33,073 nt of DNA. It comes from Phycisphaerae bacterium. Lineage in GTDB: Bacteria; Planctomycetota; Phycisphaerae; Phycisphaerales; UBA1924. Position 1 is the first letter of the stretch; each line of letters begins with the position of its first letter. Location of the stretch: contig JAEUJA010000246.1 in NCBI GenBank assembly GCA_016793195.1, positions 1 to 33,073 of the forward strand. Direction: 5' to 3'. The position numbers and the translations under genes are program-made. Shown piece by piece: positions 7,490 through 32,072 of this stretch. The notes beneath the pieces are model-generated. The model made no database searches, had not been told where the DNA came from, and saw nothing but the letters and a program-made list of their open reading frames with translations.

Positions 7490-7540
7490 GCCGCGGAGTC
7501 CGTGCGTCCGCTGTATACGCCTGACCTTGGAGCGAATCAG

Positions 7541-8455
7541 ATGAGCAATCTCAAGTCGATCCTCGTCGCCGTGGACTTCTCGCCCTGTTCCATCGCGGCA
7601 TTCAGAGTGGCGGCGCGTTTCGCGGAGTGCAACCGTGCCTCATTGCGCGCCGTGCATGCCGTGGCACTCCCGTCCTATGTACCGGCGCCGCACCCGCTAT
7701 TCCCGTTTCCGCTACCCACTCAGGCGGACTTTGTCGCGGATGCGACGACCGCGTGGGCTGTGTTCGCGGCAGCCGCGCCAACGCGCACCGATGTGAAGTG
7801 CGACATTGAGGTGGGCACTCCCCGCGAGATCATTCTCCAGGCTGCCGCCCGCGCGGGCGCGGACCTGCTCGTGCTCGGATCGCACAGCGTGCTCGATGCG
7901 CACAAGGGCATTGGTCCCACCGCCACATCGTGCATGCAGCGAGCAAGAATGAACGTGTTGCTGGTCCGAGAGAACCACGCCGGTCCGTTCAGGAGCGTGG
8001 TGGCCTGCCTCGATTTCACCGACACCTCCAAACTTGCGTTGCAGCAGGCGATCAGGGTCGCCGCGCAGGACGGCGCGGCGCTACACGTTCTACATGTGTA
8101 CGACGACCCCTGGTACGGCCTTGGCCCGCCGGCGGGCGTCAAGGCGCACATGCCCGATTTCAAGGCGCAGCTCAATCGGGGCGTCGAGGACCGCGTGCGA
8201 GAGTTCTGCGCACCCTTCTCGCACGAGCTCAACGCGCTGAAGGCCGGGTTCCACTGCCTTGAGTCCGAGTGGCGGGGCGGCGGGTACGGCCACGCGATCG
8301 TCCGGTTCGTCAAGGAACAGGGATGCGACCTGGCGATCCTAGGGACGCGCGATCGGTGGAACATCCGGGATATGGTCTTCGGTTCAACGGCCGAGCGGGT
8401 GGTGCGCGGGGCGCCGTGCTCCATCCTCGCCGTCAAACCCGATCTCACCGCTTGA
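7541..8455 (+). CDS. Tandem universal stress protein (two Usp domains)
   Basis: About 304 residues, two Usp domains. Domain one (about 1-145) opens with SILVAVDFSPCS and ends at MNVLLVRE; its nucleotide loop is degenerate (GSHSVLDAHKGIGPTATSC). Domain two (about 150-304) keeps the ATP-binding pattern better: GTRDRWNIRDMVFGSTAERV then CSILAVKP. Usp proteins accumulate under starvation and low oxygen; their biochemical job is usually unknown. The ATG at 7541 has GGAG about 8 nt upstream; an upstream GTG at 7502 adds nothing recognisable. Gaps to hpf (51 nt) and adh (45 nt) suggest one transcript. Confidence 0.9.
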   Translation: MSNLKSILVAVDFSPCSIAAFRVAARFAECNRASLRAVHAVALPSYVPAPHPLFPFPLPTQADFVADATTAWAVFAAAAPTRTDVKCDIEVGTPREIILQAAARAGADLLVLGSHSVLDAHKGIGPTATSCMQRARMNVLLVRENHAGPFRSVVACLDFTDTSKLALQQAIRVAAQDGAALHVLHVYDDPWYGLGPPAGVKAHMPDFKAQLNRGVEDRVREFCAPFSHELNALKAGFHCLESEWRGGGYGHAIVRFVKEQGCDLAILGTRDRWNIRDMVFGSTAERVVRGAPCSILAVKPDLTA

Positions 8456-8500
8456 CGGTGGCGATAGAGACAACAACCCAATACTCAATCGGAGCGTTCC

Positions 8501-15016: not shown

Positions 15017-15784
15017 TCACGGTTTGCCCGCGACCGAGGCCCCTTCCAGCTTCACGGCCATCGGGAAGAGGATGCTGTTCTCCTTGTGCACGTGCGCGTG
15101 CGTGTCGGCTTCGAGCTCCGCCAGCCCCCCGAGCATCGCCACATAGGTATTGCACGCGCCCGGCGGCGGCGTGAAGCCACCGGTTAGCGCACGCATCTTC
15201 GCGAGCGCATCGCCGGAGTGCTCGTGCTCGATCATCATCATCCGCACCGGGTTCTCGATGCCCCTTCGGGTAGGCGCCCCCCCGCACCCGCACCCACCCC
15301 CACCGCCCCCCACACACCCGGCGCCGCCCCGGCCGGTCGCGAGCGTGCGGATCCACGGGAAGAGGACCTTCTCTTCCTTCATCATGTGCTCGGTCATCTC
15401 GCCCGCGAAGTCGGTGTAGACATCCCGCAGTTCGATCAGCGAGGGCTCGCGCCCGCCGTGCACGGCGGCGACCTTCTCCGTCAGCGCCTGCAACCGCGGC
15501 AGTTCGCGCTTGAGGTACGCATGGTGCTCCTGTTCGATGTGGTCGGCCAGGGCGCCGGCGCCCCGGACCTCCCAGTCCACCGGCGGGCCGTCCGAGCACG
15601 CGGCATCCAACGCTCGCAACTCGTCGAGCACCGCCGTCGCGCTCAGCCCCTTCTTCTCGCACGCCGCGGCGAGCGCCAATCCGCCTCCGCAGCAGTAGTC
15701 GATCCCCAGCCGCTCGAAGAGTCGAGCCCTCGAGGGCTTGTCGGTCACGATCTGTCCGATGGTCGTGCGCGGGTCGATGGTCAT
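15017..15784 (-). CDS. ric: Iron-sulfur cluster repair di-iron protein (Ric/YtfE/ScdA)
   Basis: About 255 residues. The N-terminal ScdA_N domain (TTIGQIVTDKPSRARLFERL then GIDYCCGGG) is followed by a hemerythrin-like di-iron domain with ligand segments HIEQEHHAYL, EMTEHMMKEEKVLFPW, IEHEHSGDAL and HAHVHKENSILFPM. Ric proteins repair Fe-S clusters hit by NO or peroxide and donate or release NO. Between helices two and three lies a striking Gly/Cys-rich loop (about residues 161-178) with CVGGGGGGCGCGG; most homologues have a short Pro/Gly loop. I start at the ATG at 15784 (MTIDPRTTIGQIV); an in-frame ATG at 15835 adds a Pro/His-rich stretch. It is divergent from the MarR gene. NO stress would fit the nitrate-reductase-like operon. 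Confidence 0.92.
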   Translation of the reverse strand: MTIDPRTTIGQIVTDKPSRARLFERLGIDYCCGGGLALAAACEKKGLSATAVLDELRALDAACSDGPPVDWEVRGAGALADHIEQEHHAYLKRELPRLQALTEKVAAVHGGREPSLIELRDVYTDFAGEMTEHMMKEEKVLFPWIRTLATGRGGAGCVGGGGGGCGCGGAPTRRGIENPVRMMMIEHEHSGDALAKMRALTGGFTPPPGACNTYVAMLGGLAELEADTHAHVHKENSILFPMAVKLEGASVAGKP

Positions 15785-15848
15785 CGTGTGCGTCCGTTTC
15801 GGGGGGTGTGGGGTGCCGGGAATCGTGTGCCGCACGATCCCTCGCAGC

Positions 15849-16088: not shown

Positions 16089-16874
16089 GTGCCCCGCAAG
16101 CCCCCGACATCCCCGGTCGATGCCCCGACCGCCGCGCAGCGGGTCGTCGCGGGGTTGTCCAAGGTCGCGCTGGTCTTCCGGCACGCGCAGTGGGCGGCGT
16201 CGGGGGAGCGCGGGCTGACACCCACGCAGGCGCAGATCCTCGCGGTCGTCGCGGGCAACCGTGAGCCGCGGGGGGTGGGGGTCAAGGCCGTCGCGGCGCG
16301 GATGGCCGTCACGATGGGGACCGCCAGCGAAGCGGTGGGCGCGCTGGTCGAGAAGGGCCTGCTCCGCAAAGAAGCCGACGAGGCCGACGGTCGCGCCGTA
16401 GTCCTGACGCTCACCGCGCGAGGGAAGCGCGAGGCGACCCGGGCGAGCGAATGGCCCGGGGCGATCGTCGAGGCCGTGGATGCGATGCCCGAGCGCGAGC
16501 GGGCCACGCTCCTGCGCGGGCTGGTGGGCATGGTGCGCACGATGCAGGAGCGCGGCATGGTGCCGACGGCCCGCATGTGCGTGGAATGCCAGTTCTTCCG
16601 GCCCAACGAGTATCCCGGCGAGGCCAAGCCGCACCATTGCCAGTACATCGGCGCGCCCATCGGCGATGCCGACCTGCGCCTCGACTGCGCCGAGATGGAG
16701 CCGACCGGAGCCGACGCGGACACGCCCACGCGGGCGCGGCTGTGGGAGGTCTTCGTCAACGGCCAACCGCTGGATCAACACGGACCCGGGAGGAACGGCC
16801 GCGCGCGGCCCGGGGTTCGTGCGTCAATGTCACGCCGCGCGGATCACGCATCCACCAAAGGAGTATCACCATGA
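16089..16874 (+). CDS. MarR-family regulator with Cys/His-rich C-terminal metal or redox domain
   Basis: About 261 residues from the GTG at 16089. Residues ~15-150 form a MarR winged helix (GVKAVAARMAVTMGTASEAV as recognition region, then the wing DEADGRAVVLTLTARG). It is followed by a Cys-rich module: C164 and C167 (CVECQFF), H182-H183-C184 (PHHCQY) and C200 (RLDC). This looks able to bind a metal or an Fe-S/redox ligand and would make the protein a metal or redox sensor (inference; such MarR variants are known in other bacteria). The ~30-residue tail is Arg/Gly-rich and unconserved. The stop overlaps the ATG of the CxxC thioredoxin-like gene, coupling regulator and small thiol protein. The GTG lies at the presumed transcription start; an upstream in-frame ATG would include promoter sequence. 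Confidence 0.85.
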   Translation: MPRKPPTSPVDAPTAAQRVVAGLSKVALVFRHAQWAASGERGLTPTQAQILAVVAGNREPRGVGVKAVAARMAVTMGTASEAVGALVEKGLLRKEADEADGRAVVLTLTARGKREATRASEWPGAIVEAVDAMPERERATLLRGLVGMVRTMQERGMVPTARMCVECQFFRPNEYPGEAKPHHCQYIGAPIGDADLRLDCAEMEPTGADADTPTRARLWEVFVNGQPLDQHGPGRNGRARPGVRASMSRRADHASTKGVSP

Positions 16875-17107
16875 GCACGAAGGCCACGTTCTATCACGCC
16901 GGCTGCCCCGTCTGCGTCGCCGCCGAGCGCACCGTCGCCGACGCCCTGGACCGCTCGAAGTACAACGTCGAGATCGTCCACCTCGGCCAGCAGAAGGGCC
17001 GCGTCGCCGAGGCCGAGAAGGCGGGCGTCAAGTCCGTCCCCGCGCTGGTCATCAACGGCCAGCCCTTCCACATCAACCACGGCGCGGACCTGTCGGTGCT
17101 GAAGTAA
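16871..17107 (+). CDS. Small thioredoxin/glutaredoxin-like CxxC protein
   Basis: 78 residues. Starts TKATFYHAGCPVCVAAERTV with a C-P-V-C active site and later SVPALVINGQPFHI, where the cis-Pro after Val is typical of the thioredoxin fold. It is shorter than thioredoxin (~105) and closest in size to glutaredoxins and mini-thioredoxins. AAAGGAG at 16857-16863 is seven nt from the ATG and the gene overlaps the MarR stop by 4 nt. Probably a disulfide reductant serving, or controlled by, the Cys-rich regulator. Confidence 0.85.
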   Translation: MSTKATFYHAGCPVCVAAERTVADALDRSKYNVEIVHLGQQKGRVAEAEKAGVKSVPALVINGQPFHINHGADLSVLK

Positions 17108-17118
17108 TCACCGCGCGG

Positions 17119-17133
17119 CGGGCGGGCCGCCCG
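17119..17133 (+). terminator. GC-rich hairpin after the CxxC protein gene
   Basis: CGGGCGG-G-CCGCCCG begins 12 nt after the stop codon, an exact inverted repeat without a T-tract. The position suggests transcript termination. Confidence 0.4.
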
Positions 17134-17179
17134 TGGACACTACTTGGTCGCTCACGCCCGGCGCGGCCACTTCGGTCGC

Positions 17180-17198
17180 GCCGGGTCCCGGACCCGGC
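17180..17198. terminator. Perfect palindrome between convergent operons
   Basis: GCCGGGTCC-C-GGACCCGGC is an exact 9-bp inverted repeat roughly midway between the stops of the CxxC gene (17107) and mobA (17274). It could act as a bidirectional terminator for the two converging operons. No T-tract. Confidence 0.45.
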
Positions 17199-17273
17199 AA
17201 CGCATCGGCGGCTTCGAGATCAATCGCGCCCGCCGCCGACACCGCGTCCCCCCCGGTGGAAACACGCGAGGCC

Positions 17274-17897
17274 TCAGGATCGCACGATTCCCCGCTGTTC
17301 ATGAGCCGCGGGGACATCGCCGGGCAGGTTGACGTTTCTCGCCGCTTCCGGCGCAACGGGCACGGTCAACGCTCCGATCTGCTCCAAGGCGCTGAACAGC
17401 GTGTAGTCGCTTCGCGATACTCTGGCCTCCAGGATTGGCCTGACGTGCTGCGTGTACACCGCGGCGCACGGGTGCAGGCGATCTGTGGAGGCACAGACCG
17501 CATAGGCGCTCGGATGCACTTGCGCGACCTGGAGGATATTTGCGATCTCCACGCCGCTGAAGGAAGGCATGTCCCCCGCCAGTACGAAGATCGGACCCGG
17601 CCATTGGGTGAGGGCTGAAACGATGCCCCCCATCGGGCCGATCCCCGGGTGGAGATCCGGAATGATGCCGTCCGCCAACTGAAGGACGGCGGGATCGCAG
17701 GCCCCGACCAGTTTCACGCGACGGCCGAACACGCCCCGCAGGGCCTGAATGGGCTGTTGGACGAGCACTCGTCCCTCGCTTCCCCAAGGCTCGCGGAGTT
17801 TATCCCGACCGAAACGCTGGCTCCTCCCTCCGACGAGGACGACCGGCTGGACGCTCGTAAGGAAATCGCGCGAGACGAACGGCGTATCAGTTGTCAT
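17274..17897 (-). CDS. mobA: Molybdenum cofactor guanylyltransferase
   Basis: 207 residues. MobA transfers GMP from GTP to molybdenum cofactor, making the bis-MGD form used by the DMSO-reductase enzyme family. The nucleotidyl-transferase signature is LVGGRSQRFGRDKL (20-34; usual LAGGxSxRMGxDK). A Mg/GTP-binding GDM motif (FVLAGDMPSF) and the closing RNVNLPGD (usual NINTPED) are present. The ATG at 17897 overlaps the mogA 3' end by 11 nt. Last gene of the moeA-moaC-mogA-mobA operon. Its presence implies a bis-MGD enzyme, matching the molybdopterin oxidoreductase at 28636-30906. Confidence 0.92.
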   Translation of the reverse strand: MTTDTPFVSRDFLTSVQPVVLVGGRSQRFGRDKLREPWGSEGRVLVQQPIQALRGVFGRRVKLVGACDPAVLQLADGIIPDLHPGIGPMGGIVSALTQWPGPIFVLAGDMPSFSGVEIANILQVAQVHPSAYAVCASTDRLHPCAAVYTQHVRPILEARVSRSDYTLFSALEQIGALTVPVAPEAARNVNLPGDVPAAHEQRGIVRS

Positions 17898-18444
17898 GGC
17901 GGACGACCTTTCCGCCCGCCGGCGTCGCGTCTGGCCGCCCGTCGTCCTGCACCTCCCCGCGCAACGTCTCCACGGCGTGAGGCAGAATGTCGAGGAGAGC
18001 TTCGAGGTTCTCGGTACTTCCTTTGAGTGAGCCGGGCAAGGTCAGGACGAGAGTTCTGCCGATCGTGCCCGCAACCCCGCGCGACAGGAATGTCCGCGGC
18101 GTTTTGGTCATGCACCGGAGACGGGCGAGTTCCATGAGCCCCGGGTGCTCGCGCTCGATGACGCTCCGAGCGGCTTCGGGCGTCACGTCGCGCGGCGCTA
18201 GACCGGTGCCGCCTGTGCTCAGAATCAGATCGATGCCGCGCTCGGGGGTGGACCAACTGACAAAGCAGGCGGCAAGCTGGTCTTGCTCGTCGGGCAGGCA
18301 TCTCGCCTCGACCACTTCAGCGCCGAGGCGAGTTCGGAGCATTTCGGCGAGCGCCGGCCCCGACGTGTCTGTGGCTATGCCGCGTGAGCATCGATCGCTC
18401 ACAGTCAACACAGCGGCGCGGATGGGCCGGTCGGCTTCGCTCAT
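17887..18444 (-). CDS. mogA: Molybdopterin adenylyltransferase (MogA/MoaB family)
   Basis: 185 residues. Activates molybdopterin by adenylylation before molybdenum insertion. Motifs: AAVLTVSDRCSRG (N-terminal strand and loop), ILSTGGTGLAPRDVTPEA (MPT-binding GGTG loop) and LVLTLPGSLKGSTENLEALL. It overlaps moaC by 4 nt upstream and mobA by 11 nt downstream. Assigned to MogA rather than MoaB because the operon has no other candidate for the step. Confidence 0.92.
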   Translation of the reverse strand: MSEADRPIRAAVLTVSDRCSRGIATDTSGPALAEMLRTRLGAEVVEARCLPDEQDQLAACFVSWSTPERGIDLILSTGGTGLAPRDVTPEAARSVIEREHPGLMELARLRCMTKTPRTFLSRGVAGTIGRTLVLTLPGSLKGSTENLEALLDILPHAVETLRGEVQDDGRPDATPAGGKVVRHDN

Positions 18445-18983
18445 CGCCCCTCCTCAAGAGGTACTGCGGTGTAGTCGCCGTGGCGGCCACCGCGCTTCTC
18501 GGTGACGCGGATGCCCTCGATGATCATCGCGTTGTCGATCGCCTTACCCATGTCGATCACCGTCAGGCAGGCGATTGCTACTGCGGTCAGGGCCTCCATC
18601 TCGACACCCGTGCGGGCCTGCGTCCGGACGGTGGCGGTGACCCTGACGCGGCCGGACTCGAGCACGGCCTCCACGTCAACCGCTTCGAGCGGCAGCGTGT
18701 GGCACAGGGGGATGAGTTCGTCGGTGCGCTTGGCGGCGAGGATTGCGGCGACCCGAGCGACATCGAGCACGGAACCCTTCTTGATCGAGTTCTCGCGGAT
18801 CGCACGTTCAAGGTCCGGCGAGACCCGCACGAACCCCTCGGCGGCCGCGGTCCTCGCTGTGACCGGCTTGTCCCCGACATCCACCATCCGAGCCGCGCCG
18901 TCCGCGCCGATGTGTGAAAGACCTTCAGAATTCGCCCCAGGGGTTCTGTCATTCATGGCGTGACTCATCTCCGCACCACACAT
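18441..18983 (-). CDS. moaC: Cyclic pyranopterin monophosphate synthase
   Basis: About 180 residues. With MoaA it converts GTP to cyclic pyranopterin monophosphate, the first step of molybdenum cofactor synthesis. Signature segments: GAARMVDVGDK, SVLDVARVAAILAAKRT, PLCHTLPLE, EMEALTAV, DMGKAIDNAM and VTEKRGG with the conserved Lys residues. Three starts are possible: ATG at 18983 (AGGCGG seven nt upstream), 18968 or 18956; all precede the conserved core, and I choose 18983 for its ribosome site. It follows moeA by 14 nt and overlaps mogA by 4 nt. Confidence 0.92.
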   Translation of the reverse strand: MCGAEMSHAMNDRTPGANSEGLSHIGADGAARMVDVGDKPVTARTAAAEGFVRVSPDLERAIRENSIKKGSVLDVARVAAILAAKRTDELIPLCHTLPLEAVDVEAVLESGRVRVTATVRTQARTGVEMEALTAVAIACLTVIDMGKAIDNAMIIEGIRVTEKRGGRHGDYTAVPLEEGR

Positions 18984-18997
18984 CGTTTGACCGCCTA

Positions 18998-20335
18998 TCA
19001 AGCCCCCGCGGGCCAAGTGTAATAGGGCAGGATCGCGTTCGAGAAGCCCGGGGGTACTTCCACAAAGCCGTCGCTCATGCCCGCCGCGACGATGTCACCC
19101 GAGCCGCGGCCATCGATCAACTCCGCCTGAGGAAGGCCGTTGGCGTCAACGACCAATCGGACCAAGCGGTGCCACCACAAATCGAGCGTCCGACCGTCGG
19201 GATTCCTGACCTCAATGAGCCTCGGGAGGCACTCCGGTGGGGTTCGCTTCGCTCCAGCGCAGGCGGCAAGGACGGGCAGGACGATCCGTACACAGGTGAC
19301 AAGAGCGGAGACAGGGTTGCCGGGGAGCCCGAAGATGGGAAGCGTCTCCGCGGTGTGCGGCGCCGGTCGCCGCACGAGGGCACCCAGCATCGGCTTTCCG
19401 GGTCTCTGCGGAAGTCCGTGGAAGACCACCTCAGCTCCGACCTGTTCGACGGCAGCTCGAACGGGATCGCGGTGCCCCATCGAGATGCCGCCGGTCAGGA
19501 CCACAGCATCGGCGACTTGGCACGCACGCTCCAACGCACCGCCGAGGTTCCCATCGTCACGAATGTGTGACACGCTCGGCACGTTCGCCCACGCGTGCGA
19601 CGCCAGGATTGCCCGCACGGCCGGGGAGTTGCTGTTGCGGATCTGGAAGGTTGATGGCGTGTGATGCGGCTCGATGAGTTCATCACCGGTGGTGATAAGG
19701 GCGATGCGGAGGCGGGCAAAGACCGCCGGTCGAATAATCCCTACCGCTGCAAGCGTTGCCAGCCCTGCTGCCGTGATCACTTCGCCCGCGTGCAGGACGA
19801 CCGTCCCCGCCGGCGCGTTCTCGCCTCGACGACGGATATGGTCTCCTCGCCTGACGCGAGCGGCCGCCGCTCGCGTCACGGAGATTGAAGTGACATCTGC
19901 CGCCCGTCCCGCCGCGTGTTCAATGACGTCCTCCCGCCGAACAACGGTGTCGGCTCCCGCCGGGATTGCTGCGCCGGTCGCGATCCGCACCGCGACAGGC
20001 CGACGAACACCCTCGAAGGACGCTGGGGGCGGCTCGCCAATGCGAGCCTCTCCCACAACCAGCAGTGTGATCGCTTGCACGGTCTCATTCGAGCCCTCAC
20101 CTGAGGGGACGGCCAAGTCAGCGGCGCAGATTGCATACCCATCCATCGCCGAGTAGTCAAAGGCGGGGCTATCCCGGTCGGCGCGGACCTCTTCGGCAAG
20201 GATGCGGCCCGCGGCCCTATCCAACCCCACAACCTCGCTTAGTCGGGCCGAGGGTGACGGGCAAGCGAGTGCGACCAAGGCCGCTACAGCAGCCCCGGGC
20301 GAGTCGAACGCGAATGCCTGACCTCGAAAGCCCAT
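18998..20335 (-). CDS. moeA: Molybdopterin molybdenumtransferase
   Basis: About 445 residues. Inserts molybdate into adenylated molybdopterin. Motifs: the early DSPAFDYSAMDGYAI (typical P-x-F-D-x-S-x-M-D-G-Y-A), GAAIPAGADTVV, the GDELIEP segment, the MPT-binding LTGGISMGHRDPV and LPGNPVSALV. The frame is open far upstream, but similarity starts at MGFRGQAFAFDSPGAAV; AGGAG about six nt before the ATG at 20335 confirms this start. First gene of the minus-strand operon moeA-moaC-mogA-mobA, divergent from moaD with only 46 nt between start codons. Confidence 0.93.
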   Translation of the reverse strand: MGFRGQAFAFDSPGAAVAALVALACPSPSARLSEVVGLDRAAGRILAEEVRADRDSPAFDYSAMDGYAICAADLAVPSGEGSNETVQAITLLVVGEARIGEPPPASFEGVRRPVAVRIATGAAIPAGADTVVRREDVIEHAAGRAADVTSISVTRAAAARVRRGDHIRRRGENAPAGTVVLHAGEVITAAGLATLAAVGIIRPAVFARLRIALITTGDELIEPHHTPSTFQIRNSNSPAVRAILASHAWANVPSVSHIRDDGNLGGALERACQVADAVVLTGGISMGHRDPVRAAVEQVGAEVVFHGLPQRPGKPMLGALVRRPAPHTAETLPIFGLPGNPVSALVTCVRIVLPVLAACAGAKRTPPECLPRLIEVRNPDGRTLDLWWHRLVRLVVDANGLPQAELIDGRGSGDIVAAGMSDGFVEVPPGFSNAILPYYTWPAGA

Positions 20336-20369
20336 ACACGCTCCTGGTATCGCCGCCACCGCCAAACCA

Positions 20370-20375
20370 TACACT
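20370..20375 (+). promoter_or_regulatory. Candidate -10 element of moaD, leaderless
   Basis: TACACT ends 6 nt before the moaD ATG (20382), and no Shine-Dalgarno exists between. The same hexamer serves as candidate -10 for ric. The 46-nt gap to the moeA start must also hold the opposite promoter. Confidence 0.45.
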
Positions 20376-20381
20376 CCCACA

Positions 20382-20636
20382 ATGGAAGTCGAGGTGCTCC
20401 TCTTCGGTGCCGCCGCTACGCGCGAGAAATCGGACCGCGTCACCGTAGTCGTGGGCGCCGAACCGACCGTCCGGGATGTCTTGACGGCGCTCCACGAGCA
20501 GCATCCCGATCTTCGGTTCGCTCTGCCGTCCGCAGAAGCCGGCCGCCTCGCCGTGAACCAGTCTTTCGCCAGAGGGGAACATCCCATCAGAGCGGGCGAC
20601 GAGGTCGCCCTCATCACGCTCGTGGGGGGTGGCTGA
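20382..20636 (+). CDS. moaD: Molybdopterin synthase sulfur-carrier subunit
   Basis: 84 residues, the ubiquitin-like small subunit of molybdopterin synthase. It begins MEVEVLLFGAAAT, has the TVRDVLTALHEQHP helix and AVNQSF, and ends in LVGGG; the C-terminal Gly-Gly is converted to the thiocarboxylate that donates sulfur. The moaE gene follows after two bases, so the two subunits are made together. No moeB (MoaD activator) was found in the window; activation must use an enzyme encoded elsewhere. Confidence 0.92.
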   Translation: MEVEVLLFGAAATREKSDRVTVVVGAEPTVRDVLTALHEQHPDLRFALPSAEAGRLAVNQSFARGEHPIRAGDEVALITLVGGG

Positions 20637-20638
20637 CA

Positions 20639-21106
20639 ATGGCCCCGACGCCCCCGGTCGTCGTCGCTCGGATTGTGGACGAGCCGCTGATCCCAAGGGA
20701 TGAGCGGGTAACTCTCTTCGGCGAGAATTGGACCCCCGCTCGCGATGCTGTTGGCCCTCCACCCGGTGTTGTTGGTGCCGTGCTTCGCTTTGAGGGGATC
20801 GTGCGCCGAGGCGAGCCCAGCGATGCCCACGGCGGCGACGAACGGGAACTGCTGGCGCTCGACTACCAGACCTACGACCCGATGGCCGAGCGCGAACTTC
20901 GCGCGCTGGCCCGCCAAATCGCCGAAGAGCACGTCCTTTCGTCGCTCGTGGCGCTGCACAGCCGCGGGCGCGTAGCCGTGGGCGATGTGTCGTTCGTGTT
21001 GATTGTGGAAAGCCCGCATCGCGCCGAGGCGATCGCAGCGATGTCGGCGTTCATTGACCGGCTCAAGCAAGACGTGCCGATTTGGAAGAAGCCGGTGTGG
21101 AAATAG
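20639..21106 (+). CDS. moaE: Molybdopterin synthase catalytic subunit
   Basis: 155 residues. Large subunit that turns cyclic pyranopterin monophosphate into molybdopterin with MoaD sulfur. Diagnostic segments: VGAVLRFEGIVR, LDYQTYDPMAERELR, HSRGRVAVGDVSFVLIVESPHR and the active-site Lys region DVPIWKKPVWK. It ends right after this region, without the longer tail of E. coli MoaE. A His/Gly/Asp-rich insert lies after FEGIVR. It starts 2 nt after moaD and ends 6 nt before the converging TauE/SafE gene. Confidence 0.92.
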   Translation: MAPTPPVVVARIVDEPLIPRDERVTLFGENWTPARDAVGPPPGVVGAVLRFEGIVRRGEPSDAHGGDERELLALDYQTYDPMAERELRALARQIAEEHVLSSLVALHSRGRVAVGDVSFVLIVESPHRAEAIAAMSAFIDRLKQDVPIWKKPVWK

Positions 21107-21112
21107 CGGCTT

Positions 21113-21859
21113 TCACGAGACCACCAGCTTCGCGCCGGCGATGAGCAGGACGACCGCGAGCAGGACATTGAGAGTGCGAGGTGTCGCTCGCCGGCTGCCG
21201 AGTGTCGCCCCGGTGATGCCTCCGGCCCCCGCGCACGCCGCGAGCAGCCACAGCGAGGTGGGTGGGGTCCAGCCTCGGCTCGCCAGGCCGCCAAGCCCCG
21301 CGAAGGAGTTCACAAGGATAAAGAGGGACGATGTCGCGGCCGTGCGTTTGGGGTCGGCCCAGCCCATGAGCAGAATCACGGGACTCAGGAAGATGCCCCC
21401 GCCCGTGCCGGTCAGCCCCGCGAGGAAGCCCAGTCCCGAACCAACCGCCAAGGCCACCGGCATCGAAGGGGGACGCGGCGCAGACGCCGCCTTGGGGGGT
21501 CGCCATGCGACGAATGCCATGCGCACGGCCGTGAGCACAAGCACGACGCCGATGGCAGCCTTGAGCGCCTGCTGCGGGAGTTGGACGAGGCCGCCCACGT
21601 AGGCCGCGGGGATGGAGGCAACTGCAAATGGCCAGAAGAGCGTCCACGAGAAGTGCCCGGCACATGCGAATTGCGTGAACGCGATGACCGCCACCAGGAC
21701 GTTGATCGAGAGCGCCGTCGGCCGCATGACCGCGGCTTCCACACCAACGAGCGCCATGACGGCGAGGTATCCCGAAGCGCCGGCGTGGCCGACCGAGGCG
21801 TAAAGTGCGCCCACGATGAGGAACAACACGGCGAGGATGGCAAGGGTGTCCGCCGGCAT
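21113..21859 (-). CDS. TauE/SafE (TSUP) family anion permease
   Basis: About 248 residues, roughly eight membrane helices, with the TSUP landmarks VGALYASVGHAGASGYLAVM near the start and LAGLTGTGGGIFLSPVILL at the start of the second half. Family members move sulfite, sulfoacetate and related anions; the substrate here is unknown. The reading frame extends upstream into moaA, but the ATG at 21859 opens the first helix. It follows moaA by 20 nt and is the last gene of the hemerythrin-cupin-AhpD-moaA operon. Link to molybdenum cofactor genes suggests an oxyanion or sulfur substrate, which is inference. Confidence 0.88.
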   Translation of the reverse strand: MPADTLAILAVLFLIVGALYASVGHAGASGYLAVMALVGVEAAVMRPTALSINVLVAVIAFTQFACAGHFSWTLFWPFAVASIPAAYVGGLVQLPQQALKAAIGVVLVLTAVRMAFVAWRPPKAASAPRPPSMPVALAVGSGLGFLAGLTGTGGGIFLSPVILLMGWADPKRTAATSSLFILVNSFAGLGGLASRGWTPPTSLWLLAACAGAGGITGATLGSRRATPRTLNVLLAVVLLIAGAKLVVS

Positions 21860-21879
21860 CGGTGGCCTTATGAGTGGCG

Positions 21880-23034
21880 CTAACCGCCGATCGCCGACAT
21901 CGGCCGCTCGGGCTGGACAAAGTCCGGTGACGTGATCCCGTGGCCGGGCTGCTTGGTCCAAGTCGCGTCGATCAAGAAGTCGGCCAGTTCCGTGTCGGTC
22001 GCACCGGCCCGCAACGGCGAACGCAGATCCCATTCGGTGGTGCTGAACAGGCAGGGCCTGACCTTGCCGTCGGCCGTGATCCGCAGGCGGCTGCACGCCC
22101 CGCAGAAGGGGTTGCTGACGGGCGCGATGAACCCGACGCGTGCCGGCGAATCTCCGTCGAGGTCCGCGAATCGGAATGTCCGGGCCGTGCTGGATGGATC
22201 GTCGTCGCCGCACGCGATGAGCGGGAAGACACGCTCGATGGCGGCGCGGGTCTCAGCAGCGGAGACCCACTTGGAAGAATCCCAGGCGTGAGCCGAGTCA
22301 AGGGGCATGTACTCAATGAACCGCATCTCTACGCCGAAGTTGCGGGCGAGCACCGCGAGTGCGACGGCCTCGTCGTCGTTGAAACCCCGGATGAGCACAG
22401 CGTTGAGCTTGACCGGGGTGAGGCCCTCGTCCAGAGATAACTGCACACCTTTGAGCACCTGGGCGGGGGACGACGACGATCGTGTCAGGCGAGCGAATCG
22501 ATCGGGTCGGAGCGAGTCGATGCTGATAGTCAGGCGTGCCAGGCCCGCGTCCTTCCAGGCCCGCAGAGATTCGCGGCTAAGCAGAGACGCGTTAGTGATC
22601 AGGGCAATCTCGACCTTAGTCGCGACGGCGAGCCCGGCGATGATGTCGGACAGATGGGGATGCAGCGTTGGCTCGCCGCCGGTAAGGCGGACCTTTCGCA
22701 CGCCGAGCGATTCTGCGATCGCGGCGGCGCGGACGATCTCGTCCACGGTCAGGAGCGCTTCGTGCGCCGCGAATCGGACATCCGGCTCCATGCAGTAGAC
22801 GCAGCGGAAGTTGCAGCGGTCCGTGATGCTGATCCGCAGGTCGCGGATCGTTCGGCCGTGGGAATCGACCATCCGACGGCCGGCACGCACGTCCGGCGGG
22901 GCGGAAGCGGGCGCTCGTGCAGGATCTTGCCGCGGGAGTGATTGGCCGACCAACTGCGGGAGAGCAATGCCGCCACCCGCCTCGGCTGGCCGGGGCACGG
23001 AAGCGGTTCTGCTGTCCTGCATCGGGGTCCGCAC
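21880..23034 (-). CDS. moaA: GTP 3',8-cyclase (radical SAM)
   Basis: About 384 residues. Radical-SAM enzyme opening the molybdenum cofactor pathway. The SAM cluster motif CNFRCVYC is C74, C78 and C81; the second cluster uses FCGACSRLRITADGKVRPC. The C-terminus ends in Gly-Gly (MSAIGG), which MoaA requires. Before the usual start (RMVDSHGRTIRDLRISITDR) there are about 54 low-complexity residues (Pro/Ala/Gln/Arg-rich). I keep the GTG at 23034 because GGAG lies about nine nt upstream, but the ATG at 22872 gives the length and start normal for the family. It follows the AhpD-like gene by 21 nt. Confidence 0.93.
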   Translation of the reverse strand: MRTPMQDSRTASVPRPAEAGGGIALPQLVGQSLPRQDPARAPASAPPDVRAGRRMVDSHGRTIRDLRISITDRCNFRCVYCMEPDVRFAAHEALLTVDEIVRAAAIAESLGVRKVRLTGGEPTLHPHLSDIIAGLAVATKVEIALITNASLLSRESLRAWKDAGLARLTISIDSLRPDRFARLTRSSSSPAQVLKGVQLSLDEGLTPVKLNAVLIRGFNDDEAVALAVLARNFGVEMRFIEYMPLDSAHAWDSSKWVSAAETRAAIERVFPLIACGDDDPSSTARTFRFADLDGDSPARVGFIAPVSNPFCGACSRLRITADGKVRPCLFSTTEWDLRSPLRAGATDTELADFLIDATWTKQPGHGITSPDFVQPERPMSAIGG

Positions 23035-23442: not shown

Positions 23443-23847
23443 TCAAGGGTTCTGGGGTGTAGGAGGTTTGGTCGCGAGGGATACCTGAAGCAGGAACACC
23501 GCGCGGGATTGGGCTCGCACGTCGTGCCGGACGCCGGGAGCCATGACGAGCAACATGCCCGCTCGCAGGTGATACCCCTCACCCCCGGCCGTGACATCGA
23601 GCTCGCCCTCGATAGCCTGCACGGTCACGATGCCGCTGGTGGCGTGCTCGGCGAGACCTGCGCCTGCGTCCAGCACGAAGAGCGCCACCGTCCTGCCCGA
23701 GTTCTTGAAGAGCGTCTTCTGCCGATGGCCGTGCTTCTTTGGCGTCGGCTCGGCCTCCAAAGCCGCGGCCTCCGCGTGAAGGTCGAGCGCGAGATGCTCG
23801 GCTGCGAATCGCTCTGACGGAGCCGCGCGTGATCGTTCATCGCTCAT
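23443..23847 (-). CDS. Small cupin-domain protein
   Basis: 134 residues. A single cupin barrel at about 50-125: TVALFVLDAGAGLAEHATSG then AIEGELDVTAGGEGYHLRAG and MLLVMAPGVRHDV. The usual metal His set is reduced: H68 and a late His in GVRHDV are visible, but the GxxxHxH triad is incomplete, so metal binding is uncertain. The ~45 N-terminal residues are charged and unconserved. Its ATG overlaps the hemerythrin stop by four nt. Function unknown; in this operon a redox or ligand-sensing role is possible. Confidence 0.82.
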   Translation of the reverse strand: MSDERSRAAPSERFAAEHLALDLHAEAAALEAEPTPKKHGHRQKTLFKNSGRTVALFVLDAGAGLAEHATSGIVTVQAIEGELDVTAGGEGYHLRAGMLLVMAPGVRHDVRAQSRAVFLLQVSLATKPPTPQNP

Positions 23848-25066: not shown

Positions 25067-25789
25067 TCAATCGCCATGACGCTTGCGGTGTTGGCGGTCT
25101 CCGCCGTCGTGCGCCTCGCCGAGTTGCAGACTCACCCCGAGCGCGGGGACCGCAGCCGAGCGGGTGGCCGGGTCGTATGCATTGACCAACGCGGCGGTCC
25201 ACGCACCGGTGATCAGGAGGAACGCCGCCGCGGCGAGCGGGCGCGACGATCGGATGCCCTCGGACTCCGGCACGCTCTTCCGCCCGTGGACCATGCCGGC
25301 GGTGAGGTTCTCGTGGTGTCGCAACGTGTGCACGATGACGCCCAGCACATGCACGCCGGCGACGACAATCATCGCCGACGCGAGCACCTCGTGTACATCC
25401 TTGACCCCCTTGTTCCCGCGTCCCAGCATCACGCCCGTCACCGCCAGGCCCAGCATGAGGGCGAACATCGCGAAGATGGCGTACGCGGAACCGGGGTTGT
25501 GCCCGGCGTATTGCTCCTTGCGCCCAGTCACGACACCCTTGAGCTACCCCGCGACGGCCCGGGGGCCGAACGCGAAGGAGCCGAACCGCGCATGGCGCGA
25601 GCCGACGAAGCCCCAAACCACGCGGAGCACGAGCATCAGCCCCAGCGCCAGCCCGATCATCCCGTGGTAGGGGAACAGCGGGCTGTCATCGCCCTGGCCC
25701 AGTGCGATTACCGCCGCAGCGATGAAACCCCCGGCGAATAGCCAGTGGAAGAGGCGTGTGGGGATGTCCCAGACGAGAGTTCGTCGCAT
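25067..25789 (-). pseudogene. Cytochrome b561-type membrane protein, interrupted by in-frame TAG
   Basis: Read through, the frame gives about 240 residues of a di-heme cytochrome b561 / hydrogenase cytochrome-b-type protein: WDIPTRLFHWLFAG (H15), FPYHGMIG (H43), then DVHEVLASAMIVVAGVHVLG and the C-terminal HTLRHHENLTAGMV. Four membrane helices are expected, carrying electrons between the quinone pool and a partner. Codon 82 (25546-25544) is TAG in the segment GPRAVAG-stop-LKGVVTGRK. No frameshift: both sides lie in one frame and both are conserved-looking; relatives usually have Tyr at this place, one base from TAG. Either a fresh nonsense mutation, a sequencing error, or readthrough. GGAG five nt before the ATG at 25789. 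A restart at the GTG at 25531 would make only a helix-poor fragment. Confidence 0.8.
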
Positions 25790-25868
25790 GGTGAGCTCCG
25801 GACACGAGGTCCGCGTATCGAACGAATACTCGACACGCTTATAGGGACTTAAGGCGCCGGGGTTTCAC

Positions 25869-25948: not shown

Positions 25949-27091
25949 TCACTTGCGCACGCGAGCGTTCACGCACACCGCATACCCCATCCCCGCCACC
26001 GCCAGCGCCCACGCCGCGAGGGAGACGTAGCAGAACACCGGCGGCAGCACGCCCAGGAACGGCGGCAGGTCGATGGCCGAGTCCATCCGCGCCGTCGCCA
26101 CCGAGTACATCCCCAGCGGGAAGACCGCGCCGAAGTAGAGCGGGTCGTAGCGAAGCGGGAACCGCCTCACGATGTGCCGCCACACGCCCAGGATCAGCAG
26201 CATCGGAATCCACCACGTCGCCGTCGCCCAGAACAGGAGCGTCGCCCCCTTGATGAACGGGAGCAGGTCGCGCACAAGCCCCCTCGCGGCGATGCCGGAG
26301 TCTTGGCCCCCCCCATCCTTCACCGCCAGCAGCAGCGTCGCCCCCGCCAGCGTCGAGATCGCCATCGCCCCCATGTTGATCCAGTACGGCGGGGCCAGGT
26401 CCGACGGCTTGAACGGGAAGAACGTGTAGCGGTAGAAGATCAGCGCGATGATCCATACATAGAGCATCGCTCCGCCCAGCCACATCACCAGGGCGATGAA
26501 GAGCAGCCCCTCGCTGTGGCCGTGGCCTTCGATCCCTTCCGCGCCCGCGGCCCCCGCCAACTGCCCCGCCAGCACCGCCACCGCCTGCGTCGCCACCACG
26601 CTCAGCAACCACCCGCCGCTGATCCCGTCGGCGAGCGTGGGCTTGACGGCCTTGACCGTCAGCACCGTGAAGATGGTGTACGTCAGCACCGCCCACAGGA
26701 CCGTGCCGAGGATCCATAGGCCCCACGCGAGATTCGTCATCCCCCCGATCAGCAACGCCTGCGACCCCAGCACGCACGCGCCCGGCACCATCGTGAAGAA
26801 CCCCACGCTCTTGTTGTGGTTGGAGAAGTCGGCGATGAGGCGCGGGCGGTGCCGCGTGAGGCGGATGAGCGTGAGCGCCCAGAGGGCCGCGAAGAAGACG
26901 AGGTTGAGCCAGAACATGCCGCGCGAGAGCGCGGCAAACCCCTGGATCCACGCCGCGAGCGAGACAATCCCCGTCGCCATCACCAGCGAGAAGTACGAGG
27001 GGTGCAGGTTCGCGGCGGCACGGTCGAGCATGGACATCGGCGGCTGGGCGGGCTGGGGAGGGGGGGCTGCCGCGACGGGCGGGGTGCTCAT
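25949..27091 (-). CDS. TDT / SLAC1-TehA family anion channel or exporter
   Basis: About 380 residues, some ten membrane helices. The opening HPSYFSLVMATGIVSLAA is typical of the tellurite-resistance/dicarboxylate transporter family, which includes bacterial TehA and the plant SLAC1 nitrate/chloride channel. Later helices (LFIALVMWLGGAMLYVWIIALIF; IKGATLLFWATATWWIPMLL; YFGAVFPLGMYSVATARM) also fit. The N-terminus is a Pro/Ala-rich tail. The ATG at 27091 overlaps the DUF6755 stop by four nt; the frame continues upstream as a shadow. Last gene of the molybdoenzyme operon, so nitrate or nitrite passage is a reasonable inference. A C8 run lies inside the gene (26307-26314). Confidence 0.87.
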   Translation of the reverse strand: MSTPPVAAAPPPQPAQPPMSMLDRAAANLHPSYFSLVMATGIVSLAAWIQGFAALSRGMFWLNLVFFAALWALTLIRLTRHRPRLIADFSNHNKSVGFFTMVPGACVLGSQALLIGGMTNLAWGLWILGTVLWAVLTYTIFTVLTVKAVKPTLADGISGGWLLSVVATQAVAVLAGQLAGAAGAEGIEGHGHSEGLLFIALVMWLGGAMLYVWIIALIFYRYTFFPFKPSDLAPPYWINMGAMAISTLAGATLLLAVKDGGGQDSGIAARGLVRDLLPFIKGATLLFWATATWWIPMLLILGVWRHIVRRFPLRYDPLYFGAVFPLGMYSVATARMDSAIDLPPFLGVLPPVFCYVSLAAWALAVAGMGYAVCVNARVRK

Positions 27092-27408
27092 CGCGGCCTC
27101 TCTAGCAGGTAGAGGTAGCGGAGCAGGCCAAGATTGAGCACGAGACAGACAAGGCTCGCCCCGAGCGCGGGCCACGCCACCGCGTGGTCGCCGCCGAGGA
27201 AGGCGTTCATGGTCGCGGTGAGCAGCCACAACTGCATGAGGGCGATGATGAGCACGATGCACAGGATGCCCGTCACGATGGCCGTGCGGTTCTGCTCGGC
27301 GAGGCGCGAACGTGCGATGCCGGAGCGCGGCGGGCTCGGGGGGGCCGGTGCGGACACATCACCCGGCGCGTTCGCACAAGCCGATGGGTTGGGACGCGGC
27401 GGGGTCAT
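27088..27408 (-). CDS. Small two-helix membrane protein (DUF6755-like)
   Basis: About 106 residues. A Pro/Ala/Ser-rich cytoplasmic-looking start is followed by RTAIVTGILCIVLIIALMQLW and WPALGASLVCLVLNLGLLRYLYLL, two membrane helices. The pattern fits the uncharacterised DUF6755 family as I remember it; function unknown. Its start overlaps the Rieske stop and its stop overlaps the channel start, each by four nt, so all three are translationally coupled. Probably an assembly or anchoring subunit of the complex. Confidence 0.75.
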   Translation of the reverse strand: MTPPRPNPSACANAPGDVSAPAPPSPPRSGIARSRLAEQNRTAIVTGILCIVLIIALMQLWLLTATMNAFLGGDHAVAWPALGASLVCLVLNLGLLRYLYLLERPR

Positions 27409-27980: not shown

Positions 27981-28619
27981 TCATCTCGCGCCATTGAGCA
28001 CGCCCAGCGAGACCGAGCGCGGTGGGGCGTGCTCCTCCATTGCCGCCGTTACGTCGATGTGCTCGGGCCGTTGGCCCGCCACGCTCTTAGGTCCCATCAT
28101 CTTCACCTTGGTCGTGATGGTCTGATTGCCGAACTGGAAGCGATCGATCGGGGCCGCTTGCGGCCGCAGGGCCTCGATCTCCTCGCGCGTCCCGAAGAAC
28201 AGCGCCTGGCTCGGGCACACGCTCGCGCACATGGGCTTGAGGCCCACCGACGAGCGGTCGTAGCACATGTCGCACTTCATCATCAGCTCGAACTCGACCT
28301 GCATCTTGGGCACCCCGAACGGGCACGCTAGCACGCAGTTGTTGCACGCGATGCAGCGCGGCTTGCGGGCCGACTGCACCACGCCGTCCTCGCTCCGCTT
28401 GATTGCGTCGGCGGGGCAGACCTCGGCGCACGTCGGCGAGTCGCAGTGCATGCAGATCACGGGAATGGTCTGCGTCGAGTGGGCCCGATCCACCGTCTCC
28501 AGGTGGATCATGGAGTGCCCTTTGTGCGTGTCGCACTCGGTACACGCCTGCACGCACGCCTGGCACCCGATGCAGCGGGAGGCGTCGATGTAGAAGTTGA
28601 GGTGGCTGGGGACACTCAT
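27981..28619 (-). CDS. Four-cluster ferredoxin-type electron-transfer subunit
   Basis: 212 residues. Four Cys groups: [40 protein letters not shown] and CDMCYDRSS...CASVCP, enough for four [4Fe-4S] clusters in the DmsB/NrfC/NarH-like pattern. It should pass electrons between the membrane subunit or Rieske protein and the molybdenum subunit. No signal peptide, matching the molybdenum subunit. GGAG six nt before the ATG at 28619; 16 nt after the molybdenum gene. Confidence 0.92.
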
Positions 28620-28635
28620 GGCGACTCCGATAGGT

Positions 28636-30906
28636 TCATCCCTGCTGTGGCTCCAGGCGTCCGGCCCACTCGGGCGGCCCATCGGCTTTGCGCACGCGGG
28701 CCGCGCACACCTTGTACTCAGGGATCTTCGAGATCGGGTCCTGGGCGGAAATAGTGAGTTGGTTCGCGCTCTTGCGCCCGGGCCAGTGGTAGGGGATGAA
28801 AATGGTGTCGGGGCGGATCGTGGTCACGACCATGGCGCGGAGCGTGCAGTCGCCGCGGCGGGACTCGGCCGTCACCCAGTCGCCGTCCTTGATCCCCATC
28901 GTCTCGGCGAGGCGCGGGTGCATCTCGATCCGCGGCTCGGGGTACTGGTCCACCAAAGGGCCGATGCGGCGGGTCTGGGTGCCCGAGAGGAACTGGCTGA
29001 CCACGCGCCCGGTGGTGAGCATGAGCGGGTACTCCGCGTCGGTCACCTCCGCCGGCGGCGTGTACGGCGCGACATTGAAGCGGGCCTTGCCGTCGGGGAA
29101 GTAGTACGGGCCCGCGCCCTTGGCGATCGGGTTCCACGAGTTCGGCTCGAACAGGCGCGGCGTACCGGGGTGGTCGATGGGCTTGCCGTCGGGTGATTCG
29201 GAATAGCACGGCCAGCAGACGCCGTACTGCCGCTCAATCTTCTCATAAGTGATGCCGGAGTAGTCCGCAACGCCGCCCTTGCTGGCCGTGCGGAGTTCGT
29301 CGAAGATCGCGCGGGGCGAGTCGAACGTGAAGCCGGTGGGGCGCTCCAGCGCGGCGGCGATGTCCTGCACGATCTTCCAGTCCTGCCTCGCGTCGCCGGG
29401 GCATTCCACCGCCTTGTTGATCTTGATGACCTTGCCTTCGATCTGCGTGACGACACCCTCATCCTCTTCCTGCAGCGAGCCGGGGAGCACGATATCCGCG
29501 TGACGCGCCGTTTCGTTCATGAAGAAGTCGATGGTGACGTAGAACTCGAGTTTGCCCAGGGCGCGGGCGATGAAGCTGTTGTCCGGGAGCGAGACCATCG
29601 GGTTGAAGCAGAGCGAGATCAGGCCCTTGATCTCGCCCGCGTCGATCTTGCGGAACATCTCGTAGCAGTCGACGCCGGGACCGGGCAGGTCGGGCTCGGC
29701 GATGCCCCAGAGCTTGGCGATGTGGGCGCGGTGCTCGGGGTTGGAGATGTCGCGCCAGCCGGGAAGCTGGTCGCACTTCTGCCCGTGCTCGCGTCCGCCC
29801 TGGCCGTTGGCCTGGCCGGTGATGGTGCCGTAGCCGCACCCCTCGCGCCCGATGCGCCCCGACGCCAGAACGATGTTGATGGCTCCGAGCACGTTTTGCA
29901 CGCCGTGGGAATGATGCTCGATCCCGCGGGCGTGCATGAGGAAGCTGGTCTTGGCTGTACCCCACCAGTCCGCGGCCTGCCGGATCAGCCGCTCGGGGAT
30001 GCCCGTCACCTCGGCGGTCTTGGCGGGGTTCCAGGAGGCGACGTGTTCGGCGACCTTGTCGAAGCCGACGGTGAACTGCTCGATGAACGGCCGGTCGATC
30101 CACCCCTTCTCGATCATCAGGTGCAGCACGCCGTTGAAGAGGGCGATGTCGCGCCCCGGCTTCACAGGCAGGAACAGGTCGCAGGTGCGGGCCAAGGGCG
30201 TGATGCGCGGATCGACGACGATGATCTTCGCCCCGTTGTCGCGGGCCTGCCAGACGTACTCGGTCGTGATCGGGGCGCACTCGGCGACGTTGGCCCCGCT
30301 GATCCAGATCAGCTCGGCCTTGGGAATGTCGCTCCACGGGTTCGCGGCCCGGTCGATGCCGAACGCCTTCTTGTTCCCTGCGCCCGCGCTCACCATGCAC
30401 AAGCGCCCATTGTAGTCGATGTAGGGGGTTTTCAGGCACACCCGGGCGAACTTGCCCATGAGGTAGGCCTTCTCAACGGTGAGGCTCGCGCCGCTCAGCA
30501 CGCCCATCGCCGAGTTGCCGTAGGCCTTCTGGATCCGCGCGATCTCGGCGGCGACGCGCGCGATGGCCTCCTGGTAGCCCATCGGGCTGAAACCCTCGGG
30601 CGCGTTGGCGTCCCGCTTGAAAGCTGTGAGCAGCCGATCCGGGTGAGCGCCCTGGAGATACCGCTTGACGCCCTTCGGGCAGAGCATGCCCCGGTTGAAC
30701 GGGAAGTCATACCAGGGCTCGAAGCCGGTGACGACGTTGTCCTTCACCTTCAGTTGAATCCCGCACTGCTGGCCACAGAAGCAGCAGTGGGTTTTCACGA
30801 GGCGGTCCGGCTCCGCATCCGTGGCGAGGCGCATCGGACCCGAGCGGGCGACATGCGGACCGAAGCGGTCCAGGATCGGCAGGAGGTTTGAAGGGGGGTT
30901 GGACAT
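28636..30906 (-). CDS. Molybdopterin (bis-MGD) oxidoreductase, NapA/NarB-like catalytic subunit
   Basis: 756 residues, DMSO-reductase superfamily. The N-terminal [4Fe-4S] motif is C41-x2-C44-x3-C48-x27-C76, followed by CPKG. The likely molybdenum ligand is C170 in [11 protein letters not shown]; Met after the Cys is the NapA/NarB nitrate-reductase pattern, whereas formate dehydrogenases have (Sec/Cys)-His. MGD-binding segments: [34 protein letters not shown] and the C-terminal domain [20 protein letters not shown]. No Tat signal is seen (start [12 protein letters not shown]), so it is probably cytoplasmic. AAGGA lies about five nt before the ATG. Nitrate is the leading substrate, but the unusual partners (Rieske, NarI/HdrE-like) mean another oxyanion cannot be excluded. 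Confidence 0.9.
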
Positions 30907-30923
30907 GAGAATCCTTCTGTCGA

Positions 30924-32072
30924 TCAAGCCTGCTCGGCCGTCGTAGCGGGGGCCGACGCGGCCTCCATCATCTCCGCAACATCCACGATCCCGGGGCGGT
31001 CGCTCACCTCGCGGCCGCGCCCGGCCTGCCACAATCGGCCTTGCGCCAGCGCCATGCTAAGACGGCGGCAGCGCGGACAGATGTACTGGTAGTGGCCGAC
31101 TGAGTCTCCCCGCACCCCCGGCATCTCGTAGGAATACCCCAGCTCGCGCTCGACCCGAATGAGGTCTTCGACATGCGCCTTCGAGGCAAACGGCTGCGCG
31201 CAGTTCCGGCACGCAGCCTGCTCGCCGGTTCTACCGGCGTCCTTGTAGAACGACACACCGAGCTGCGCCGGACGCTGGAAGATGTGGAAGAACTTGCCGA
31301 ACGGCAGCCAGAGCAGCGTGAAGATCACGCACGCGGCATGGACGATCGCCAGGAAGTCGTAGGCGTACCCCTTCATCCATGTGTAGCTAGCCGTGAGCAT
31401 CAGCCCGGTGATGCTCACCGCGAAGAGCAGGATGAGCGGCAGGAAGTCCTCGCTGAACTGCTGCACGGCCTCAGCGCCGCGATCGCGCATCCGCCGCCTC
31501 ATCGCGATCATCACTCCCGCGATGACCAGAAACGAAGCCCACACCAGGCCGTGGAAGATCAATCCGCCGAGCACGCTCCCAATCCGGAAACTGAACGTGG
31601 GAAAACCAAAGACGTACACGCGGTATCGCTCGAAGTCGTCGGCGGGCGTCTGGAAGTGGATCCACCCGAACACCAGCGGGAAGGTGATCGCCCCCGCCAG
31701 CAGGCAGCCCCACATGATGAGCCAGTGGGCGGCCCAGCGGGTTCGACTCCGCCGGAAGATGAAGTTATTGAACGCAAAGACGCCGACGACGCGCTTGGGC
31801 CAGGCGGCGAGGTTGGCGAGGAGCCGGTCACGCGAGAAGAACACCTGCCAGCCGCGCCGCCAGAAGAGCGCCGTCGGCGGGCGCTGCAGCCACATGGAGT
31901 AGCGGTACGTGATCCCAAACACCGCGAAGAGAGTGGCGAATGTGTAGCCAACGAGCGCGGCGTCAAAGTGGGCGAGATTGCGCGAACCGATGGCGATCAG
32001 AGCCGCCACGAGGAGTGTGGCCGCAACCCCTTGTGCACCTGCCCTGACTGTCTCTCGATTCAAGGATGGCAT
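30924..32072 (-). CDS. NarI/HdrE-like cytochrome b-type membrane subunit with zinc-ribbon tail
   Basis: About 382 residues. Five to six membrane helices with candidate heme His residues in [27 protein letters not shown] and [13 protein letters not shown]; the last resembles the end of NarI/HdrE-type proteins. After the membrane part, C-x2-C (CRNCAQPF) and later CPRC (YICPRCRR) make a zinc-ribbon or rubredoxin-like knuckle in the cytoplasm. It is probably the quinol-reactive subunit. The ATG at 32072 has GAGG five nt upstream. First gene of the operon; TACACT at 32122-32127 on this strand is a possible -10, without a clear -35. Confidence 0.85.

Follow-up and report, generated by a model that had tools for sequence, protein, structure and literature searches.

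A conserved gene set that probably encodes a membrane-anchored nitrate reductase with a NasC-type catalytic subunit

Introduction

The window analysed here is the whole of a 33,073-nucleotide stretch of DNA from a Phycisphaerae bacterium (GenBank assembly GCA_016793195.1), contig 66 of a 3.6 Mb draft genome that is 84% complete. It carries an operon in which a molybdenum oxidoreductase is encoded together with a four-cluster ferredoxin, a membrane cytochrome b, a Rieske protein, a DUF6755 protein and a SLAC1 channel, and the question is what such a combination does. We consider it probable that the operon encodes a quinol-dependent, membrane-bound dissimilatory nitrate reductase, in which a NasC-type catalytic subunit is placed on an electron chain resembling NarH and NarI.

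Results and discussion

The six genes are co-directional on the minus strand, from 32072 to 25949, with intergenic gaps of +17, +16, +33, -4 and -4 nt. An earlier note on this DNA had described six genes on one strand with short gaps or 4-nt overlaps, and correctly so; the span it gave, 28636-32072, takes in just the first two of them, for the membrane and molybdenum subunits. In operon order, the six are as follows.

30924..32072, minus strand: membrane subunit, NarI-like predicted dihaem cytochrome b, 382 aa, six predicted transmembrane helices, C-terminal Cys4 knuckle
28636..30906, minus strand: catalytic subunit, NasC-type bis-molybdopterin guanine dinucleotide (bis-MGD) oxidoreductase, 756 aa, one N-terminal [4Fe-4S] site
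27981..28619, minus strand: four-cluster ferredoxin subunit of the DmsB/NrfC/HybA type, 212 aa
27405..27947, minus strand: Rieske [2Fe-2S] protein, 180 aa, with a single long membrane helix and the twin-arginine motif ARREFTKF
27088..27408, minus strand: DUF6755 protein, 106 aa, small and hydrophobic
25949..27091, minus strand: SLAC1/TDT-family channel (PF03595), with NarK in its place in 19 related loci

In a profile search of the operon proteins, the Pfam cut-offs were passed for Molybdopterin/Molydop_binding/Fe4S4, Fer4_11, Rieske, DUF6755 and SLAC1; the membrane subunit matched no Pfam family at 0.001. A 100% identical copy of the membrane subunit occurs in a Planctomycetota bacterium record, and the nearest named relatives of the window belong to the Phycisphaerales/Planctomycetota.

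Conservation of the gene order

With the membrane subunit as query, a search of 84,980 species genomes found at least 259 relatives. By the names of their records, the best 80 loci fall in the Planctomycetota (26), Acidobacteriota (19), Myxococcota (14), Chloroflexota (11), Armatimonadota (3) and others. The order membrane subunit, molybdenum subunit, ferredoxin, Rieske protein, DUF6755 is identical, on an identical strand, in 72 of the 74 sufficiently long loci, spanning about ten phyla; the remaining two, L021 and L090, encode DUF6755 elsewhere in their genomes. This five-gene conservation far exceeds chance, and it makes the Rieske protein and DUF6755 constant parts of the gene set. The earlier note had suggested testing the conservation of the whole six-gene order; the five-gene core is conserved, and SLAC1 is exchangeable. 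Two loci under other labels, L013 (Vicinamibacteria) and L020 (Cyanobacteria), encode membrane subunits that share 93% and 81% identity with the planctomycete protein and are probably mislabelled or contaminated bins.

Megaplasmids of Deinococcus carry the five genes in matching order and strand, followed by a NarK-like nitrate/nitrite transporter. Their catalytic and ferredoxin subunits are 57-60% identical to those of the window, the membrane subunit 47% and the Rieske protein 40%. The complex is hidden in the public Deinococcus records because the membrane subunit is annotated there as an MFS transporter (L006 6774-7886, L007 6889-8001, L009 7889-9001). Our search of openly available papers found no description of the gene set and no mention of DUF6755.

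Catalytic subunit

Residue conservation was counted over 72-84 sequences, depending on the subunit. Cys 170, Met 171 and the [4Fe-4S] cysteines are invariant in the catalytic subunits, in which neither a signal peptide nor a twin-arginine translocation (Tat) motif was seen. The earlier note had pointed to the Cys-Met pair, the Cys4 knuckle and the twin-arginine motif of the Rieske protein, and all three proved to be conserved among the relatives.

A phylogenetic tree that combined 28 complex members with references for Nas, Nap, Fdh, Aio and Phs placed the complex members in one clade (SH-aLRT, the Shimodaira-Hasegawa-like approximate likelihood ratio test, 100). Support was also 100 for the complex together with NasC and 87 for the joining of Paenibacillus NasC; the formate dehydrogenases formed a separate group with support of 98. 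The position beside NasC and outside the formate dehydrogenases, together with the profile scores below, agrees with the view put forward earlier that the gene set matches none of NarGHI, Nap and formate dehydrogenase. The note had named two outcomes that would speak against a new complex, homologues that never co-occur and a catalytic subunit inside a formate dehydrogenase clade; neither was observed. The catalytic subunit is 43% identical to a Paenibacillus nitrate reductase whose gene adjoins nirB. The NasC hidden Markov model (HMM; NCBIfam NF047855) gives 775.8 bits, under its curated cut-off of 1100, and the protein is therefore not filed as NasC.

Other assignments were tried and rejected. 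The narG HMM scores 59 bits against a cut-off of 1084. NapA reaches 247 bits against 930, there is no Tat motif, and the operon has no multihaem cytochromes. The arsenite oxidase model (arsenite_ox_L) scores 133.5 against a cut-off of 359, a Cys ligand is present, and AioA lies far away in the tree. Formate dehydrogenase was rejected because the protein lies outside that clade and lacks a (Sec/Cys)-His active site. The earlier note had suggested nitrate or another oxyanion as substrate; nitrate is supported as the predicted substrate by the Cys-Met active site, the kinship with NasC and the many loci in which NarK is adjacent.

A survey from 2020 stated that members of the NasA/NasC/AioA/NapA clade are never associated with canonical four-cluster or membrane-anchor subunits (PMC7331816). 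The gene set described here is an exception to that statement.

Membrane subunit

Four histidines of the membrane subunit are almost or completely conserved (His 116, 84/84; His 174, 82/84; His 245, 84/84; His 263, 84/84), and the cysteines of the Cys4 knuckle (Cys 288, 291, 332 and 335) are invariant. Weak NCBIfam matches were to TcuB and QmoC, and 19 of 45 relatives of the membrane subunit weakly match Nitrate_red_gam. An hhalign comparison with E. coli NarI, itself a weak match, paired His 245 and His 263 with the two C-terminal histidines of NarI, which are haem ligands. A profile search of solved-structure sequences returned nothing useful.

The AlphaFold model of the subunit has a pLDDT (predicted local distance difference test) of 84.5. 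Its eight best structural matches are all NarI of NarGHI (Z 11.5-12.0, root-mean-square deviation 4.6-6.1, about 180 residues), followed by EtfD at Z 11.4 and then by rows with Z of 7.9 or less; NarI and EtfD were separated from other folds only in this second structural alignment, after Foldseek. A bc1-like bifurcating complex, one of the readings in the earlier note, would call for a bc1-type cytochrome b with a Qo site for the Rieske protein; on its model and the weak Nitrate_red_gam matches, the subunit looks NarI-type. The hydrophobicity and charge profile predicts six helices with both ends inside, placing the Cys4 end in the cytoplasm. From this topology we infer that His 174 and His 245 bind an outer haem and His 116 and His 263 an inner one.

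Ferredoxin, Rieske protein and DUF6755

All 17 cysteines of the ferredoxin subunit, 16 for the clusters and one more, are invariant in 72 sequences, and its NarH HMM score is far under the cut-off. In the Rieske protein, both cluster boxes and an extra cysteine pair of the disulfide type are invariant. It is the only operon protein with a twin-arginine motif, which is present in 71 of 72 sequences, and among solved structures AioB is the closest to it. Positive charges on either flank of the helix leave its orientation ambiguous; the Tat motif and the extra cysteine pair speak for the outward placement proposed in the earlier note, which is probable, and the helix looks like a permanent anchor. 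DUF6755 is a probable two-helix accessory subunit.

Exchange of SLAC1 and NarK

The last gene belongs to the SLAC1/TDT family of plant-like anion channels (PF03595, 166.5 bits against a cut-off of 27.9); comparing its protein with solved-structure sequences returned nothing useful. Among the 68 loci with room for a downstream gene, SLAC1 is present in 45, NarK in 19, neither in four and both in none (Fisher p 2.6e-13, kinship ignored). The gene directly after DUF6755 is SLAC1 in at least 34 loci and NarK in at least 17. The SLAC1 label changes at least six times on well-supported branches of the catalytic tree and 11 times on the best tree, and one fully supported sister pair (L026 and L028) differs in its downstream transporter. 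In kinship-independent pairs, NarK never moves with SLAC1 and the two are opposite in about five of six, with a median sign-test p of 0.06 that is limited by the number of pairs. From these patterns, SLAC1 is an exchangeable transporter and does not belong to the core subunits. Since it is exchanged with NarK, there is a strong lead that it is a putative nitrate/nitrite channel.

Nitrogen genes of the carriers

Among 101 relatives of the window genome, the presence of DUF6755 defines 11 carriers and 90 others. A siroheme nitrite/sulfite reductase is found in none of the 11 carriers, one of which (G039) is a single-contig genome, as against 22 of the 90 others. All eight carriers in the window's family have NosZ and seven have NrfA; both are common in non-carriers of that family too and are weak indicators alone. 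In a second sample, of 42 carriers from all phyla, we found NarG in seven, NapA in four, NrfA in 20 and NosZ in 16, with neither NarG nor NapA in 32 at the threshold used. The window genome itself has NrfA, a partial NosZ and a NapA-like gene; NarG, NirK and NIR_SIR were not found in this 84% complete draft. The nitrogen genes favour a dissimilatory role in the window's lineage, and carriers with NIR_SIR could still use the enzyme for assimilation.

Proposed mechanism

That the operon encodes a dissimilatory, quinol-dependent nitrate reductase is in our view the best explanation and is supported by the fixed gene order, the NasC clade with its Cys-Met pair, the four histidines with the Cys4 knuckle and the NarI fold. 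It is also in keeping with the exchange of NarK and SLAC1, the absence of siroheme reductases in the relatives, the presence of NrfA and NosZ, and the RIC, Crp/Fnr, Rrf2 and nos neighbours described below. Quinol would be oxidized at the membrane subunit near the outer haem (His 174/His 245), and electrons would pass to the inner haem (His 116/His 263), the four-cluster ferredoxin, the [4Fe-4S] cluster of the catalytic subunit and finally the Mo-bis-MGD site, which would face the cytoplasm and reduce nitrate to nitrite there. Both ions may pass through the membrane by way of the adjacent SLAC1 channel or, in other species, of NarK. Where NrfA, an ammonifying nitrite reductase of the periplasm, is present, it could then use the nitrite. 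The Rieske centre may, at a guess, be a high-potential one-electron port beside the outer quinol site, trading electrons with periplasmic carriers. A more elaborate scheme, which we regard as unlikely, would split the quinol electrons at the outer face, so that the Rieske protein supplies periplasmic nitrite or nitrous oxide reduction and the two b haems supply cytoplasmic nitrate reduction, with SLAC1 as a nitrate/nitrite exchanger.

Several observations weigh against a dissimilatory, NarI-linked nitrate reductase. A Z of 12 can be reached by unrelated helical bundles, Foldseek gave no match to the membrane subunit with E below 0.001 and mostly seven-helix receptor noise, and the sequence match to NarI is weak by both hhalign and Nitrate_red_gam. 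The window genome also encodes a NapA-like protein (contig 245 of G000, 16410-18059, L003), which has an RLCMASAVT active site and groups with NapA in the tree. In the sample of 42, NIR_SIR is absent from 16 carriers and present in 26, in which assimilation is possible; 12 have none of NrfA, NirK and NosZ; and NirK is rare, occurring in five or six; a tight coupling of the gene set to NirK was looked for and not found. The comparison of carriers with non-carriers is confined to the window's order.

Alternative explanations

The gene set could instead encode an assimilatory nitrate reductase serving nitrogen nutrition and fed by the quinol pool rather than by ferredoxin or NADH. NasC is the nearest relative of the catalytic subunit, the 26 carriers with NIR_SIR fit such a role, and the carriers include cultured Sorangium, Singulisphaera and Herpetosiphon, for which we know of no nitrate respiration. 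We nevertheless think this rather unlikely, given that the carriers among the window's relatives lack siroheme reductases and that RIC, Crp/Fnr and nos genes repeatedly lie near the operon. Annotated Deinococcus records, moreover, have no nirB or nirD beside the operon; by contrast, the NasC-type gene of Deinococcus taeanensis adjoins nirBD.

Two further possibilities concern the site of catalysis and the reaction catalysed. Arsenite oxidase AioBA is exported by hitch-hiking on the Tat signal of its Rieske subunit, and by analogy the Rieske protein here could carry the molybdenum-ferredoxin module to the periplasm, as its being the sole bearer of a twin-arginine motif and its structural closeness to AioB would allow. 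A directly adjacent NarK or SLAC1 would be needless for a periplasmic enzyme, however, and with the Cys4 end of the membrane subunit predicted to be cytoplasmic and the Rieske helix resembling a permanent anchor, we hold periplasmic catalysis to be quite improbable. Least credible is the oxidation of formate by a membrane-bound variant of formate dehydrogenase that has unusual partners. The top matches of the catalytic subunit among solved-structure sequences are indeed formate dehydrogenases and the Fdh-alpha HMM gives 556 bits, but the NasC HMM is higher at 776 bits and the tree separates the two groups. Where formate dehydrogenases have a His after the Mo ligand, all complex members have Met, and nitrate/nitrite carriers are among the neighbours.

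Comparison with known systems

The predicted complex resembles NarGHI in its molybdenum subunit without a signal, its four-cluster ferredoxin, its predicted dihaem membrane subunit of NarI fold and the NarK gene adjoining many loci. It differs in having a NasC-type subunit instead of NarG, in the additional Cys4 knuckle, Rieske protein and DUF6755, and in that no NarJ was seen in the operon. NasC/NarB enzymes are sisters of the catalytic subunit in the tree and share its Cys-Met active site, but the known neighbours of NasC are nirBD, whereas here they are four-cluster and membrane partners. As in AioAB, a molybdenum subunit gene stands beside the gene for a twin-arginine Rieske protein, although the present gene set also has a ferredoxin and a cytochrome b, and AioA has no amino-acid ligand to Mo (PMC7331816). 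In the Caldithrix Nap cluster, genes for a cytochrome b and a Rieske protein adjoin those of the nitrate reductase (PMC5317091); the reductase there is a periplasmic NapA with a bc1-like cytochrome b, in contrast to the NasC-type reductase and NarI-type cytochrome here. QmoC and TcuB (by weak sequence match) and EtfD (by structure) resemble the membrane subunit, which differs from them in having a C-terminal Cys4 knuckle in place of a fused iron-sulfur domain.

Genes near the operon

Downstream of the operon, and outside the complex, lie molybdenum-cofactor genes and a gene for iron-sulfur repair.

17274..23034, minus strand: molybdenum-cofactor cluster, comprising MoaA (23034-21880), MoeA-like (end at 18998), MoaC (19016-18441), MogA/MoaB (18444-17887) and MobA-like (17897-17274)
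15017..15835, minus strand: RIC/YtfE iron-sulfur repair protein

RIC relatives are found near the operon in 17 other loci, and Crp/Fnr, Rrf2 and nos maturation genes recur near other copies. Genes of the nitrous oxide reductase maturation type (NosD/ABC) lie upstream in L019, L023, L063 and L068; NosD was assigned by HMM in L063, and the other assignments are by clustering only. FmdE-family genes are near the operon in seven loci (e.g., L040 6466-7131 and L006 15506-16255). Just 3' of SLAC1 on the minus strand is a cytochrome b561-like gene (25070-25864), which has one in-frame stop in the window and in L011 and an intact frame in L012 and L024. A small cupin gene (23443-23847 in the window) is near the operon in 15 loci, including L038, L049 and L068, and in some it directly follows the membrane gene. 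On the plus strand, 899-9574 of the window encodes a histidine kinase with a sigma-54-type response regulator, a glutamate dehydrogenase and a nucleoside diphosphate kinase regulator and, as judged by eye, a hibernation factor, a universal stress protein and an alcohol dehydrogenase; these genes look like a low-oxygen or stress regulon.

Implications

From its sequences, the gene set looks like an unnamed type of membrane-anchored nitrate reductase whose gene order has been kept over about ten phyla. The genes narG and napA are the usual survey markers for nitrate reduction. Because neither NarG nor NapA was detected in 32 of the 42 carriers, members of the Planctomycetota, Acidobacteriota, Myxococcota and Chloroflexota that carry the gene set may escape surveys of nitrate reducers or be filed as assimilatory. 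The proposed complex would mean that an enzyme clade described as lacking an electron chain of the respiratory type does have one, and the exchange of SLAC1 with NarK offers a direct lead to the function of bacterial SLAC1 channels.
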